A stretch of 64,000 bases of DNA, from positions 37,760 to 101,759 of the forward strand of contig NW_003125307.1 in the NCBI RefSeq assembly GCF_000003605.2, read 5' to 3'. Each line of letters begins with the position of its first letter. Position 1 is the stretch's first letter. The notes beneath the pieces are model-generated. The model was not told where the DNA came from. It made no database searches and was given only the letters and a program-made list of their open reading frames with translations. Below are positions 1 to 64,000 of the stretch, one piece after another. This DNA is from Saccoglossus kowalevskii (lineage: Eukaryota; Hemichordata; Enteropneusta; Harrimaniidae). A program made the position numbers and the translations under genes.

Positions 1-4
1 AGTC

Positions 5-20
5 AAAAAAATTTAATAAA
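5..20. repeat. Length-variable A/T tract at unit junction (reference monomer 1)
   Basis: After GTC each unit has an A run that changes to a T run before AATAAAAG. The point of change and total length differ between copies: A7T3 here, about A6T5 in monomer 11, A3T8 in monomer 46, nearly all A in monomers 4 and 45, and interrupted by C in monomer 68. Slippage and unequal pairing are the likely cause. It accounts for many of the one-base differences in unit length. Confidence 0.8.
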
Positions 21-124
21 AGCCAGTTGAAAGCAGCACATAGATGTTCATGTGAGCTGAGTGTAAAATGTTAGAAAACAGCGTGCAAAGTTGGAAAAAA
101 CGAAGGAAATGTTGGCACAGTTGC

Positions 125-187
125 TTGTATATTTAACCTAAGTCATTAACATGGCAACCCCGCAGTTAAATTTCAAAATACTAAGTA
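125..187 (+). repeat. Internal degenerate direct repeat, copy A
   Basis: This stretch aligns with 899-961. Both begin TTGTATAT, then share ACCTAAGT, a CAT about 6 bases later, GCAGTT, and a TCAAAA-type A-rich end. Identity by eye is roughly three quarters with very few gaps. The upstream CAAAG-rich sequence also resembles that before copy B. The two copies lie about 774 bp apart within the unit, so the 945-bp monomer seems to contain an older, shorter duplicated element. Confidence 0.7.
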
Positions 188-191
188 AATG

Positions 192-200
192 TTCCGAGAA
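192..200 (+). promoter_or_regulatory. TTCnnnGAA motif (STAT-type consensus), reference monomer
   Basis: TTCCGAGAA matches the TTCnnnGAA consensus of animal STAT factors. It is present in nearly all units; monomers 27, 44 and 68 carry a substitution in or beside it. A motif this short is expected by chance in an AT-rich unit, so function is unproven. Confidence 0.25.
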
Positions 201-203
201 TGT

Positions 204-215
204 CTTATATATAAG
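204..215. repeat. Perfect 12-bp TATA palindrome
   Basis: CTTATATATAAG reads the same on both strands and contains a TATA-box-like core in both directions. It is intact in most units. Single substitutions break it in monomers 53 (near 49320), 56 (near 52155) and 61 (near 56882). It could act as a bidirectional TATA element or simply as an easily melted site. Confidence 0.6.
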
Positions 216-250
216 CAGATTATCACAACAGTCAACCGAAAAATTGACAA

Positions 251-287
251 CAAACTGCTTACAAAGTTGTGAAAAGCGATTGCAAAG
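251..287 (+). repeat. Helically phased CAAAG-type cluster I
   Basis: CAAAC at 251, CAAAG at 262, AAAAG at 272 and CAAAG at 283 are spaced 11, 10 and 11 bp, which averages one DNA helical turn. The same period occurs in cluster II at 839-885. Phased short A runs are known to favour curvature and rotational nucleosome positioning. Confidence 0.65.
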
Positions 288-368
288 TTAGTAGTTTCAA
301 TAGGAATTGTTACCTGTGATATCATATTAACAAGTCCCATAATTAAAAGTTCGGAAATGTGAATAAAT

Positions 369-385
369 ATTACGCCAATTGATGT
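369..385 (+). promoter_or_regulatory. Invariant 17-bp block containing CCAAT (reference monomer)
   Basis: ATTACGCCAATTGATGT appears unchanged in all 68 units I read, while the bases on both sides vary (for example TTAAA or AAAAT directly after it, and GAAGAAAT before it in monomers 57 and 60). It includes a CCAAT box and the palindrome CAATTG. Invariance may reflect constraint or recent homogenisation. Confidence 0.4.
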
Positions 386-417
386 AAAATTACCGTAGTG
401 TTACTCCATGTATTCAG

Positions 418-430
418 AGGTCATAGGTCA
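418..430 (+). promoter_or_regulatory. Perfect DR1 nuclear-receptor-type site (AGGTCA n AGGTCA)
   Basis: Two exact AGGTCA half-sites are separated by one base. This is the DR1 arrangement recognised by RXR/USP, HNF4 and COUP-TF/SVP class nuclear receptors. I checked all 68 units, including the partial last one, and both half-sites are intact in every one. The spacer is T in 65 units and G in three (monomers 18, 19, 28). The motif match is certain; binding is inference. The neighbouring block at 369-385 is also invariant, so invariance alone does not prove selection. Confidence 0.55.
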
Positions 431-431
431 A

Positions 432-439
432 TTCTAGAA
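432..439. promoter_or_regulatory. TTCTAGAA palindrome, heat-shock-element-like core
   Basis: TTC-TA-GAA is the two-unit core of a heat shock element (TTCnnGAA). It is followed by GG and TAC, one mismatch from a third TTC unit, and begins 2 bp after the DR1 site. It is less conserved than the DR1: monomers 7, 8, 24, 31, 37 and 43 carry substitutions in it. Two perfect units are usually too few for strong HSF binding, so this is a tentative call. Confidence 0.35.
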
Positions 440-487
440 GGTACTGGAGCAGGCCATATCGATTGAAAACACCCACAAACATAAAAT

Positions 488-503
488 AGCCGCTAATTCG
501 GCT
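488..503. repeat. Small inverted repeat just upstream of the 5S relic
   Basis: AGCCG and CGGCT flank a 6-base loop CTAATT. Variants elsewhere (AGACG with CGGCT in monomers 10, 13, 44, 45; AGCCG with CGTCT in monomers 6, 39, 62) break the pairing without compensation, so there is no sign that the stem is selected. The array edge at 63769 falls on the first base of the corresponding stem. Confidence 0.55.
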
Positions 504-511
504 TAATTTCA

Positions 512-627
512 AATATAAACCATGTAGCTGTGTTGTTAGGTGACCGATAAATGTTTAATGTAAAGCTCAATCGGGCGTGGTTAGTCGTTGCATGGGAGAC
601 TCCCTGCGTAAACAAGGTGTTGCATTC
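512..627 (+). pseudogene. 5S rRNA-derived relic with intact-looking Pol III internal promoter core (reference copy)
   Basis: 5S rRNA is the small RNA of the large ribosomal subunit, transcribed by RNA polymerase III from an internal control region bound by TFIIIA. From 571 to 627 the sequence aligns without gaps to the 3' half of animal 5S, about three in four bases identical by my count against the remembered consensus. Conserved parts are TCGGGCGTGGTTAGT at 571-585 (intermediate element) and GCATGGGAGACTCCC at 590-604 (C box). GGTGTTG near 616-622 corresponds to the 5S 3' end. The A box is weak (TAAAGC near 561-566). In the 5' half only ACCAT (519-523) and CCGAT (544-548) align, and spacing has changed. 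The 3' end no longer pairs with the 5' end, so it is not a working rRNA. A copy lies at about +511 to +626 in each of monomers 1-67; the partial monomer 68 ends before it. Alternatively it is the head of a 5S-derived SINE. Confidence 0.8.
590..607 (+). other. Hairpin at the 5S helix IV position
   Basis: GCA pairs with TGC and GGGA with TCCC around a GAC loop, leaving one bulged T at 593. This is where 5S rRNA has its helix IV hairpin. The stem differs from the 5S consensus yet remains paired. It is disrupted in monomer 13 (loop base changed), monomer 21 (GCATGCGAG) and monomer 43 (7 bases lost). Confidence 0.45.
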
Positions 628-628
628 A

Positions 629-638
629 TTTTTTTTTT
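629..638 (+). terminator. T-run at the 3' end of the 5S relic (Pol III-type terminator)
   Basis: Ten T residues begin two bases after the 5S-like 3' end, where a genuine 5S gene has its Pol III terminator (four or more T). Most units have 9 or 10 T, and monomers 8, 14 and 65 have 11. The run is short or interrupted by G in monomers 34, 35, 40, 52, 57 and 67, but at least four T always remain. Confidence 0.7.
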
Positions 639-679
639 CATCACAAACATTAAGAAAATATATAAGACAACGTTCCAAC

Positions 680-705
680 ATTTTTTGGTACTGTGATGTA
701 AATCA
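680..705 (+). other. Sm-site-like motif followed by a small GTAA-loop hairpin
   Basis: ATTTTTTGG at 680-688 resembles the Sm-protein binding site of spliceosomal and spliced-leader RNAs. At 694-705, TGAT and ATCA pair around GTAA, a GNRA-type loop. The short-unit class changes the motif to ATTTTTTTG, and no recognisable snRNA or splice-leader body precedes it. Probably coincidence. Confidence 0.15.
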
Positions 706-751
706 TTTATAGTGAAAAATCGTGTCATTTTTGTAACTTTCTAAACTAATG

Positions 752-761
752 GAAAATTTTC
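752..761. repeat. A4T4 palindrome
   Basis: GAAAATTTTC is a perfect 10-bp palindrome with an AAAATTTT core, a sequence known to bend DNA. Monomers 2, 21 and 63 carry GAACATTTTC and monomer 49 GACAATTTTC. Confidence 0.5.
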
Positions 762-776
762 AAATTCCTTCTAATC

Positions 777-784
777 TTCAAGAA
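777..784. promoter_or_regulatory. Second TTCnnGAA motif
   Basis: TTCAAGAA has the same TTCnnGAA arrangement as 432-439, and the preceding TAA is one base from a third unit. Variants are TTCAAAAA in monomers 20 and 22 and TACAAGAA in monomer 49. Function not shown. Confidence 0.25.
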
Positions 785-838
785 CGAGTTGCTGATGCTG
801 TTGGCACGTAGTCGGTTTTAAGCTATTAGCACACCGTG

Positions 839-885
839 CAAAGGTGTTCAAAGTGAATGCAAAGTTGTGCAAAGTCGTTCCAAAG
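839..885 (+). repeat. CAAAG cluster II with exact 10.5-bp mean spacing
   Basis: CAAAG starts at 839, 849, 860, 870 and 881, so spacing is 10, 11, 10, 11. The spacing is kept in most units, with single motif losses such as TAAAG in monomer 23 and CGAAG in monomer 42. Five units have lost one 10-bp element by deletion between neighbouring copies. All five motifs face the same side of the helix. Confidence 0.75.
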
Positions 886-898
886 CTGCTAGATGTAT

Positions 899-961
899 TT
901 GTATATATGACCTAAGTTGTTGGCATATAGAAACGCGCAGTTGTAAAGTCAAAAAATTTTA
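899..961 (+). repeat. Internal degenerate direct repeat, copy B
   Basis: Partner of 125-187. It crosses the arbitrary unit boundary at 946/947. It shares TTGTATAT, ACCTAAGT and GCAGTT with copy A, in the same order and close spacing. Confidence 0.7.
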
Positions 962-1891
962 ATAAAAGCCAGTTGAAAGCAGCACATAGATGTTCATGTG
1001 AGCTGAGTGTAAAATGTTAGAAAACAGCGTGCAAAGTTGGAAAAAACGAAGGAAATGTTGGCACAGTTGCTTGTATATTTAACCTAAGTCATTAACATGG
1101 CAACCCCGCAGTTAAATTTCAAAATACTAAGTAAATATTCCGAGAATGTCTTATATATAAGCAGATTATCACAACAGTCAACCGAAAAATTGACAACAAA
1201 CTGCTTACAAAGTTGTGAAAAGCGATTGCAAAGTTAGTAGTTTCAATCGGAATTGTTACCTGTGATATCATATTAACAAGTCCCACGATTAAAAGTTCGG
1301 AAATGTGAATAAATATTACGCCAATTGATGTTAAATTACCGTAGTGTTACTCCATGTATTCAGAGGTCATAGGTCAATTCTAGAAGGTACTGGAGCAGGC
1401 CATATCGATTGAAAACACCCAAAAACATAAAATAGCCGCTAATTCGGCTTAATTTCAAATATAAACCATGGAGCTGTGTTGTTAGGTGACCGATAAATGT
1501 TTAATGTAAAGCTCAATCGGGCGTGGTTAGTCGTTGCATGGGAGACTCCCTGCGTAAACAAGGTGTTGCATTCATTTTTTTTTCATCACAACCATTAAGA
1601 AAATATATAAGACAACGTTCCAACATTTTTTGGTACTGTGATGTAAATCATTTATAGTGAAAAATCGTGTCATTTTTGTAACTTTCTAAACTAATGGAAC
1701 ATTTTCAAATTCCTTCTAATCTTCAAGAACGAGTTGCTGATGCTGTTGGCACGTAGTCGGTTTTAAGCTATTAGCACACCGTGCAAAGGTGTTCAAAGTG
1801 ATTGCAAAGTTGTGCAAAGTCGTTCCAAAGCTGCTAGATGTATTTGTATATATGACCTAAGTTGTTGGCATATAGAATCGCGCAGTTGTAA
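947..1891 (+). repeat. Satellite monomer 2 (945 bp)
   Basis: Has GGAACATTTTC near 1697 and GAATCGCGCAG near 1876, both shared with monomers 21 and 63. Confidence 0.95.
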
Positions 1892-2839
1892 AGTCAAAAA
1901 AATTTAATAAAAGCCAGTTGAAAGCAGCACATAGATGTTCATGTGAGCTGAGTGTAAAATGTTAGAAAACAGCGTGCAAAGTTGGAAAAAACGAAGGAAA
2001 TGTTGGCACAGTTGCTTGTATATTTAACCTAAGTCATTAACATGGCAACCCCGCAGTTAAATTTCAAAATACTAAGTAAATGTTCCGAGAATGTCTTATA
2101 TATAAGCAGATTATCACAACAGTCAACCGAAAAATTGACAACAAACTGCTTACAAAGTTGTGAAAAGCGATTGCAAAGTTAGTAGTTTCAATCGGAATTG
2201 TTACCTGTGATATCATATTAACAAGTCCCATGATTAAAAGTTTGGAAATGTGAATAAATATTACGCCAATTGATGTTAAATTACCGTAGTGTTACTCCAT
2301 GTATTCAGAGGTCATAGGTCAATTCTAGAAGGTACTGGAGCAGGCCATATCGATTGAAAACACCCAAAAACATAAAATTGACGCTAATTCGGCTTTATTT
2401 CAAATATAAACCATGTAGCTGTGTTGTTAGGTGACCGATAAATGTTTAATGTAAAGCTCAATCGGGCGTGGTTTAGTCGTTGCATGGGAGACTCCCCTGC
2501 GTAAACAAAGTGTTGCATTCATTTTTTTTTTCATCACAAACATTAAGAAAATATATAAGACAACGTTCCAACATTTTTTGGTACTGTGATGTAAATCATT
2601 TATAGTGAAAAATCGTGTCATTTTTGTAACTTTCTAAACTAATGGAAAATTTTCAAATTCCTTCTAATCTTCAAGAACGAGTTGCTGATGCTGTTGGCAC
2701 GTAGTCGGTTTTAAGCTATTAGCACACCGTGCAAAGGTGTTCAAAGTGATTGCAAAGTTGTGCAAAGTCGTTCCAAAGCTGCTAGATGTATTTGTATATA
2801 TGACCTAAGTTGTTGGCATATAGAAACGCGCAGTTGTAA
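1892..2839 (+). repeat. Satellite monomer 3 (948 bp, longest)
   Basis: Two one-base insertions lie inside the 5S relic: an extra T in GGTTTAG near 2472 and an extra C in CTCCCCTG near 2495. Confidence 0.95.
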
Positions 2840-3784
2840 AGTCAAAAAAAAATAATAAAAGCCATTTGAAAGCAGCACATAGATGTTCATGTGAGCTGAG
2901 TGTAAAATGTTAGAAAACAGCGTGAAAAGTTGGAAAAAACGAAGGAAATGTTGGCACAGTTGCTTGTATATTTAACCTAAGTCATTAACATGGCAACCCC
3001 GCAGTTAAATTTCAAAATACTAAGTAAATGTTCCGAGAATGTCTTATATATAAGCAGATTATCACAACAGTCAACCAAAAAATTGACAACAAACTGCTTA
3101 CAAAGTTGTGAAAAGCGATTGCAAAGTTAGTAGTTTCAATCGGAATTGTTACCTGTGATATCATATTAACAAGTCCCATGATTAAAAGTTTGGAAATGTG
3201 AATAAATATTACGCCAATTGATGTAAAATTACCGTAGTGTTACTCCATGTATTCAGAGGTCATAGGTCAATTCTAGAAGGTACTCGAGCAGGCCATATCG
3301 ATTGAAAACACCCAAAAACATAAAATAGCCGCTAATTCGGCTTAATTTCAAATATAAACCATGTAGCTGTGTTGTTAGGTGACCGATAAATGTTTAATGT
3401 AAAGCTCAATCGGGCGTGGTTAGTCGTTGCATGGGAGACTCCCTGCGTAAACAAGGTGTTGCATTCATTTTTTTTTCATCACAACCATTAAGAAAATATA
3501 TAAGACGACGTTCCAACATTTTTTGGTACTGTGATGTAAATCATTTATAGTGAAAAATCGTGTCATTTTTGTAACTTTCTAAACTAATGGAAAATTTTCA
3601 AATTCCTTCTAATCTTCAAGAACGAGTTGCTGGTGCTGTTGGCACGTAGTCGGTTTTAAGCTATTAGCACACCGTGCAAAGGTGTTCAAAGTGATTGCAA
3701 AGTTGTGCAAAGTCGTTCCAAAGCTGCTAGATGTATTTGTATATATGACCTAAGTTGTTGGCATATAGAAACGCGCAGTTGTAA
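2840..3784 (+). repeat. Satellite monomer 4 (945 bp)
   Basis: Starts with an A-only tract, then GCCATTTGAAAG and CGTGAAAAGTTGG near 2923. The same combination recurs only in monomer 45. Confidence 0.95.
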
Positions 3785-6621: not shown

Positions 6622-7567
6622 AGTCAAAAATATTTAATAAAAGCCAGTTGAAAGCAGCACATAGATGTTCATGTGAGCTGAGTGTAAAATGTTAGAAAAC
6701 AGCGTGCAAAGTTGGAAAAAATGAAGGAAATGTTGGCACAGTTGCTTGTATATTTAACCTAAGTCATTAACATGGCAACCCCGCAGTTAAAATTCAAAAT
6801 ACTAAGTAAATGTTCCGAGAATGTCTTATATATAAGCAGATTATCACAACAGTCAACTGAAAAATTGACAACAAACTGCTTACAAAGTTGTGAAAAGCGA
6901 TTGCAAAGTTAGTAGTTTCAATCGGAATTGTTACCTGTGATATCATATTAACAAGTCCCATGATTAAAAGTTTGGAAATGTAAATAAATATTACGCCAAT
7001 TGATGTAAAATTACCGTAGTGTTACTCCATGTATTCAGAGGTCATAGGTCAATTGTAGAAGGTACTGGAGCAGGCCATATCGATTGAAAACACCCAAAAA
7101 CATAAAATAGCCGCTAATTCGGCTTAATTTCAAATATAAACCATGTAGCTGTGTTGTTAGGTGACCGATAAATGTTTAATGTAAAGCTCAATCGGGCGTG
7201 GTTAGTCGTTGCATGGGAGACTCCCTGCGTAAACAAGGTGTTGCATTCATTTTTTTTTTTATCACAAACATTACGAAAATATATAAGACAACGTTCCAAC
7301 ATTTGTTGGTACTGTGATGTAAATCATTTATAGTGAAAAATCGTGTCATTTTTGTAACTTTCTAAACTAATGGAAAATTTTCAAATTCCTTCTAATCTTC
7401 AAGAACGAGTTGCTGATGCTGTTGGCACGTAGTCGGTTTTAAGCTATTAGCACACCGTGCAAAGGTGTTCAAAGTGATTGCAAAGTTGTGCAAAGTCGTT
7501 CCAAAGCTGCTAGATGTATTTGTATATATGACCTAAGTTGTTGGCATATAGAAACGCGCAGTTGTAA
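6622..7567 (+). repeat. Satellite monomer 8 (946 bp)
   Basis: Has ATGAAGGAAATG, CAACTGAAAA, GTAAATAAAT and CAATTGTAGAAGG, all shared with monomer 31. T-run is extended to 11 by a C-to-T change. Confidence 0.95.
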
Positions 7568-31191: not shown

Positions 31192-32126
31192 AGTCAAAAA
31201 AAAATAATAAAAGCCAGTTGAAAGCAGCACATAGATGCTCATGTGAGCTGAGTGTAAAATGTTAGAAAACAGCGTGCAAAGTTGGAAAAAACGAAGGAAA
31301 TGTTGGCACAGTTGCTTGTATATTTAACCTAAGTCATTAACATGGCAACCCCGCATTTAAATTTCAAAATACTAAGTAAATGTTCCGAGAATGTCTTATA
31401 TATAAGTAGATTATCACAACAGTCAACCGAAAAATTGACAACAAACTGCTTACAAAGTTGTGAAAAGCAATTGCAAAGTTAGTAGTTTCAATCGGAATTG
31501 TTACCTGTGATATCATATTAACAAGTCCCATGATTAAAAGTTTGGAAATGTGAATAAATATTACGCCAATTGATGTTAAATTACCGTAGTGTTACTCCAT
31601 GTATTCAGAGGTCATAGGTCAATTCTAGAAGGTACTCGAGCAGGCCATATCGATTGAAAACACCCAAAAACATAAAATAGCCGCTAATTCGGCTTAATTT
31701 CAAATATAAACCATGTAGCTGTGTTGTTAGGTGACCGATAAATGTTTAATGTAAAGCTCAATCTGGCGTGGTTAGTCGTTGCATGGGAGACTCCCTGCGT
31801 AAACAAGGTGTTGCATTCATTTTTTTTATCACAAACATTAAGAAAATATTATATAAGACAACGTTCCTGCATTTTTTTGTACTGTGATGTCAATCATTTA
31901 TAGTGAAAAATCGTGTCATTTTTGGAACTTTCTAAACTAATGGAAAATTTTCAAATTCCTTCTAATCTTCAAGAACGAGTTGCTGATGCTGTCGGCACGT
32001 AGTCGGTTTTAAGCTATTGGCACACCGTGCAAGGTGTTCAAAGTGATTGCAAAGTCGTTCCAAAGCTGCTGGATGTATGTGTATATATGACCTAAGTTGT
32101 TGGCATATATAAACGCGCAGTTGTAA
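31192..32126 (+). repeat. Satellite monomer 34 (935 bp, mosaic, short class)
   Basis: Left end has the monomer 16/17 markers (AGATGCTCATG, CCCGCATTTAAA). Right end has the short-class markers and the missing CAAAG element at 32030-32065. Confidence 0.95.
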
Positions 32127-63769: not shown

Positions 63770-64000
63770 AATTTATATTTTCGTAACATACATCTTCAAT
63801 ATTTCAACACAACTACACAATGTCGAGTGAACCAGTACTATGTAGTTTAATTGATAATAATAAGCAGACCATATATAAATTACTATGTATTGCTTCCCTT
63901 TTTAACAAAGGCTTACTATGTGAATCAGGAGCTGCACCAAATAAATAATACATTTCACTCAAAGACAAATGAAAACACTTTTGATAGACGATAGAAACTA
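63770..64000. other. Non-satellite flank beyond the array edge
   Basis: Similarity to the monomer ends after CATAAAATA. The remaining 231 bp is AT-rich and I find no match to any part of the satellite unit. It contains no recognisable transposon terminus, tRNA or telomere repeat. The only open stretch of note is the 42-codon frame at 63820-63948. Confidence 0.85.
63820..63948 (+). CDS. Possible short open frame (42 codons) in the flank, unrecognised
   Basis: ATG at 63820 has A at -3 (ACACAATG), a favourable eukaryotic start context, and the frame runs to TAA at 63946-63948. The product would begin MSSEPVLCSL and end in GAAPNK. It is polar with a short leucine-rich stretch in the middle and has no motif I recognise. 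A frame of this length is not rare by chance in 231 bp of AT-rich DNA, so it may be nothing, or it may be a first exon of a flanking gene or element. Confidence 0.15.
   Translation: MSSEPVLCSLIDNNKQTIYKLLCIASLFNKGLLCESGAAPNK

Follow-up and report, generated by a model that had tools for sequence, protein, structure and literature searches.

A 945-bp satellite of Saccoglossus kowalevskii carries the promoter half of a 5S rRNA gene, probably as a fossil

A ~945-bp tandem satellite in the hemichordate Saccoglossus kowalevskii contains, in every complete unit of the stretch studied here, a segment that resembles a 5S rRNA gene in its 3' half. Is this segment a leftover of a 5S gene that was caught up in a satellite, or a promoter core that is still maintained? 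We analyzed a 64,000-base stretch of contig C1787 (NW_003125307.1; C1787:37760-101759), referred to here as the window, and searched the assembly (572 Mb; 4,830 contigs) for related sequences. The window consists of a single array of 67 complete units in the plus orientation (positions 1 to 63280), each 933 to 948 bp long and with a mean pairwise identity of 97.5%, followed by a partial unit of 720 bases in the same orientation that ends at position 64000. All 101,759 bases of the contig (102 kb) are satellite, and the near-identical units in tandem are those of a 5S-derived satellite DNA.

The unit has some internal structure of its own. A sub-repeat at positions 819 to 966 (plus strand), which runs into unit 2, resembles unit positions ~69 to 189 and 212 to 350; these three segments have diverged from each other, and the 5S-like segment lies outside them. 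A hairpin with a 5-bp stem is present just 5' of that segment (positions 488 to 503, plus strand). Four variant units scattered in the array (starting at positions 31192, 36854, 48182, and 62348) are 933 to 935 bp long, with 17 to 19 indel columns and altered core bases. A tRNA scan of positions 1 to 3000 found none, and the RNA fold of positions 512 to 640 was not more stable than shuffled sequences (z, 0.28; 121 of 200 shuffles as good).

A profile hidden Markov model built from five animal 5S sequences matched all 67 complete units at 5S nucleotides (nt) ~49/50 to 115, on the plus strand only (E, 5e-8 to 7e-4), in agreement with the preliminary description, which had reported one 5S relic in each of monomers 1 to 67. 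There was no other match to this profile in the window and none in the reversed window. When the unit was aligned locally to 5S from human, Xenopus, and Drosophila, the scores (44, 50, and 30, respectively) were above those of all 500 dinucleotide shuffles in each case, while the scores to C. elegans, yeast, and Arabidopsis 5S were not clearly distinct from the shuffles (20, 310, and 9 of 500 as good); the best yeast and Arabidopsis alignments fell elsewhere in the unit.

In unit 1, the relic occupies positions 558 to 624 (plus strand; 5S nt 49 to 115) by the profile and by alignment to the species' own 5S gene, and its extent is similar in the 67 units. Its parts are unequally preserved. Compared with the functional gene, the window consensus is identical at 28/30 sites over nt 62 to 91 (positions 571 to 600; referred to here as the core), which cover the intermediate element and most of the C box, at 7/12 sites on the decayed A-box side (nt 50 to 61; positions 559 to 570), and at 13/24 sites in the decayed 3' flank (nt 92 to 115; positions 601 to 624). 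The boundaries used for these promoter elements are those generally given for 5S genes. The core should correspond approximately to the DNA contacted by the first TFIIIA fingers. Beyond these parts, identity is 12/49 over nt 1 to 49 and 1/4 over nt 116 to 119, followed by 4/4 at the TTTT that comes next. A T-run stands at this terminator position (positions 629 to 638, plus strand, in unit 1), with 8 to 11 T in 64 of the 67 units; the three remaining units have 4, 5, and 7 T. The run of about 10 T described earlier is in register with the TTTT of the functional gene. The core likewise lies where the 3'-half match had been placed, but the homology extends more widely and includes the A-box side; of the promoter elements described as kept, the intermediate element is, and the C box is mostly covered.

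The covariance model gave a weaker signal. With the Rfam 5S model, unit 1 reached 16.6 bits, short of the cut-off of 38 (E, 0.55 in 271 bases and 2.2 in 1100 bases), in an alignment with many broken pairs and a 5' half that was not recognizable. A scan of the window at the Rfam gathering threshold returned no match, and by this measure the unit lacks an intact 5S gene. The significant 5S match that had been anticipated was thus obtained with the profile and BLAST but not with the covariance model. Fragments of the 5' half had also been proposed to survive; seven gapped tests for nt 1 to 49 beside the relic did not support this (p, 0.11 to 0.67), the lowest value coming from the functional gene of this species (p = 0.107, a score reached at 5.9% of the offsets in the unit). 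Tests with nt 1 to 52 of animal 5S sequences did not reveal the 5' half elsewhere in the unit either (one of five gave p = 0.047, uncorrected). At the level of sequence, a 5S ancestry of the relic is supported.

The same genome contains functional 5S arrays, with units of ~1139 bp (C3485) or ~1579 bp (C2212 and C3801) and genes that reached 101 to 113 Rfam bits in those scored (47 of 18,217 first-look candidates). The genes of these two array types are nearly identical, and their spacers are almost unrelated. Exact copies of a motif from the 5' half of the functional gene number 52 in the assembly, all within these three arrays; with up to two mismatches, the motif has 1,340 sites. The satellite aligns to these genes, a comparison that had been suggested: in a BLAST search over a small set of loci, the species' own 5S units were matched with E values of 1e-7 to 5e-7. 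Because the GCGTGG and TTGCATGGGAGAC of the functional gene are also present in the relic, the relic most likely descended from the 5S of its own lineage. Matches between the 945-bp consensus and the two functional units were confined to gene sequence, the spacers being different; the 80-bp match to the 1579-bp type extends a few bases beyond the gene into the T-run. The rest of the 945-bp unit matched neither the spacers of the two functional array types nor the spacer of a 216-bp satellite unit described below. With an Rfam score below the cut-off and a spacer not common to the functional arrays, the unit does not belong to the functional 5S rDNA repeat.

Genome-wide, the core motif was found at 7,438 sites with up to two mismatches (reversed-pattern control, 0), and a spacer motif of the 945-bp family was found at 3,562 sites (control, 35), a count from which the family would amount to ~3.4 Mb. 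Arrays of the family, with units of 921 to 946 bp, were identified in C1787, C124, C322, C324, C389, C482, and C496 (consensuses 77 to 92% alike; 91 to 98% within arrays), and C113 also belongs to it. Decayed tandem remnants of the family are present in larger contigs (C203:450600-456000, in 531 kb; C58:24400-27000, in 100 kb). All 10 arrays or loci that we read contained the core, including C58, C113, and C203, which were drawn from the listing of spacer-motif matches and were not among the core matches listed. A majority consensus of seven arrays agreed with the functional gene at 29/30 sites over nt 62 to 91, 12/24 over nt 92 to 115, and 7/12 over nt 50 to 61, with the TTTT in register. At other offsets along the unit, 12/24 was reached in only 3 of 895 forward and 2 of 944 reverse cases, and 7/12 in 13 of 919; since the flank matches exceed those at nearly all other offsets, the flanks look homologous but decayed. 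The arrays differ at nt 77 and 78 (CG in the window, mostly TC in C124, and TG in C322), and these subfamily bases recur through the arrays read. A spacer-variant pattern intended for sampling more arrays had no match, and neither exact-pattern searches of viral contigs and prokaryote genome contigs nor blastn of plasmids gave any match.

A second family, with a 216-bp unit (C111, C242, and C404), is a full-length 5S variant that is 91.7% identical to the functional gene. Two 10-kb stretches of it (20 kb) contained 93 Rfam 5S matches at the gathering threshold (41 to 100 bits). Some 5S variants in this satellite are spaced ~118 to 120 bp apart, without a spacer. The two satellites match at 88% over 43 nt. 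The base before TCGGGCG (nt 61) is A in two consensuses of the 216-bp family and in ten sequences of the 945-bp family, in contrast to G in the functional gene; among exact cores, 73 had a base other than A at this site; the three functional arrays account for 52 of these, and the other 21 lie outside them. Since the A is common to both satellites and differs from the functional gene, the two may derive from a single non-functional 5S lineage.

On balance, we consider it likely that a 5S rRNA pseudogene gave rise to part of the 945-bp satellite unit and that the 5S core is now a fossil. A variant 5S copy, comprising at least the 3' half and the terminator, would have been incorporated into a longer repeat, the remainder of which was unrelated to it, and the chimera would then have been amplified in tandem and have diverged into array-specific subfamilies. 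The source was possibly one non-functional 5S lineage from which the full-length 216-bp satellite also came. The 5S homology, the register of the T-run, the family structure, and a within-array variation of the core that is no lower than elsewhere are observations; this order of events and a present behavior as an ordinary, concertedly evolving satellite are what we infer.

Two points weigh against this reading: the rest of the unit matches none of the 5S spacers compared, and there is a contrast between the core and its surroundings. In the seven-array consensus, the core agrees with the gene at 29/30 sites and the flanks at 19/36 (Fisher p = 5e-5); in the window, the values are 28/30 for the core and 13/24 for the 3' flank (p = 0.001). 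With the core so much better kept than its flanks, uniform decay is an insufficient explanation unless only nt ~49 to 91 were captured or the core was retained for a while. An alternative, which we regard as unlikely, is that the core is a selected box for TFIIIA (and TFIIIC or Pol III) kept in thousands of copies, either marking or organizing the arrays in the manner of the CENP-B box of alpha satellite or giving short transcripts that end at the T-run. No likelier is the fuller version of this idea, in which the intermediate element and C box would serve as a CENP-B-box-like TFIIIA-binding box throughout a multi-megabase system of two satellite families (945 bp and 216 bp). The contrast itself speaks for selection, as does a comparison of five arrays from the spacer listing (C113, C124, C324, C389, and C482, the last four of which are also in the core listing), where the core agreed with the family consensus at 147/150 sites and the remainder of the unit at 92.5% (p = 0.003); in C113 alone, the values were 28/30 and 92.2%. 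In five decayed copies in larger contigs, the difference was not significant (137/150 against 90.8%; p = 0.48). A run of four or more T follows 139 of the 140 cores examined (background, 0.17 to 0.30), cores that share ancestry and hence are not independent; in this count, a substitution-only search missed one insertion-bearing unit of the window, and one core lay too near the end of its stretch.

The variation within arrays argues against selection. Across seven arrays, it was no lower in the core (38/1830) than elsewhere (1053/55451; p = 0.54); in the window, 44% of 48-bp segments vary no more than nt 50 to 97, and invariant sites make up 0.39 of the C box against 0.74 of the whole unit. Between arrays, the pairwise identity of the core (0.96) ranked first in the seven-array comparison. 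Six of those seven arrays had come from the core-pattern listing, a source biased toward intact cores, and the pattern left nt 77 and 78 free, so that variation at these two sites proves nothing. In the spacer-found set, 117 of 915 segments were at least as conserved as the core (45 of 915 with all ten sequences), and we no longer take a top rank of the core in conservation as main evidence; its earlier first rank was largely an effect of ascertainment, because the arrays had been found through the core. The three arrays to which only the window itself or the search for the core had led (the window contig, C322, and C496) gave 85/90 against 91.1% (p = 0.19). The reference consensus in these core-versus-rest comparisons included seven of the eight arrays tested and had its core set to the letters of the functional gene. 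Unit positions 134 to 163, 261 to 290, 345 to 374, and 837 to 866 equal or exceed the 5S core in cross-array conservation in one or both comparisons; the second and fourth contain CAAAG repeats, and these segments are possible further protein-binding boxes. Overall, the indications of present-day selection on the core are weak to negative, with one small result in favor, and selection is not supported at the sequence level. With within-array variation no lower in the core and its first rank mostly due to ascertainment, we read the core as a fossil. Binding of TFIIIA to it is plausible and may be weak and without consequence.

Origins other than a captured pseudogene seem less probable again. 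A 5S-headed SINE (SINE3-like) or another retroelement with a 5S promoter, turned tandem later, would account for a promoter that is kept as other parts change, as in the plant Cassandra elements, which keep a ~70-bp 5S core (PMC10853983). The relic still has its T-run terminator in place, though, and two non-array loci that we read end at different unit positions (~375 to 404 and ~284 to 447), a pattern more in keeping with remnants of tandem copies than with insertions of a retroposon; this origin, raised in the preliminary description as a SINE3 relation, is improbable and found no support in the two loci, which lacked fixed ends. That the core is continually refreshed from functional 5S genes or the 216-bp satellite, through gene conversion or recombination, is a shade more improbable. 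The A at nt 61 and the 88% match common to both satellites are in its favor, and recombination between 5S rDNA and the satellite PcP190 has been reported in frogs (PMC11675491). Conversion tracts would be expected to reach past nt 62 to 91, yet the flanks are decayed in all ten sequences compared, and the subfamily-specific bases at nt 77 and 78 recur through the arrays read. Chance resemblance to 5S, to which only the Rfam score under the cut-off lends anything, can practically be discounted given the match in 67/67 units (E as low as 5e-8), the lack of any match in the reversed window, the failure of any of 500 shuffles to equal the human, Xenopus, or Drosophila scores, and the BLAST matches to the species' own 5S units.

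Satellites derived from 5S genes are as such already known elsewhere. What is new here is a long unit in which only the promoter half is left, and its coexistence in one genome with a satellite of full-length 5S variants. Together with the functional 5S arrays, the two satellites offer a natural series in which to ask how a gene array turns into a satellite and whether the promoter cores left behind, in their thousands, compete for TFIIIA with the few real genes. If the core were a TFIIIA box after all, a Pol III factor would be brought to thousands of sites, where it might organize or transcribe heterochromatin. There is also a warning for annotation: the 20 kb of the 216-bp satellite that were scanned gave 93 matches above the Rfam 5S cut-off, as against 52 exact copies of the functional 5' half in the assembly.

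We did not find the ~945-bp satellite in the open-licence literature searched. As in 5S-derived satellites in general, part of its unit is homologous to the species' own 5S gene (28/30 over nt 62 to 91). SINE3 elements and other 5S-headed SINEs are dispersed retroposons with a 5S-derived Pol III promoter, in contrast to the tandem arrays with a terminator described here. Derivation from 5S rDNA is shared with a centromeric tandem repeat reported for the fish Hoplias malabaricus and a satellite reported for the B chromosome of the plant Plantago lagopus.

Cassandra elements, which are plant LTR retrotransposons, resemble the 945-bp satellite in having kept the internal-promoter core of 5S, the bases between the boxes being variable (PMC10853983). 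In Tribolium, there are 5S copies with 30-bp deletions, which affect the end of the gene in T. castaneum and its beginning in T. freemani; the arrays that contain them are in part associated with satellites (PMC11202950). These truncated copies sit among full genes, whereas no copy in the window reaches the Rfam cut-off. 5S rDNA has also been described in centromeric chromatin of Tribolium castaneum and, as cited there, of switchgrass (PMC7598501). In hyloid frogs, PcP190 is a tandem satellite with a 5S-like region ~70% identical to 5S and a region without a known match to 5S spacers, and its transcription has been reported (PMC11675491). A 5S-like region beside an unrelated region, in tandem, is also the arrangement of the 945-bp satellite. 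The PcP190 unit is ~190 bp with a 120-bp 5S-like region, as opposed to only ~67 recognizable nt in the 945-bp unit, with nt 1 to 49 undetected; the 945-bp satellite is thus not of the PcP190 type in the strict sense, and the 216-bp satellite is nearer to it in layout. Among the systems described, PcP190 is nevertheless the nearest kind to the 945-bp satellite.
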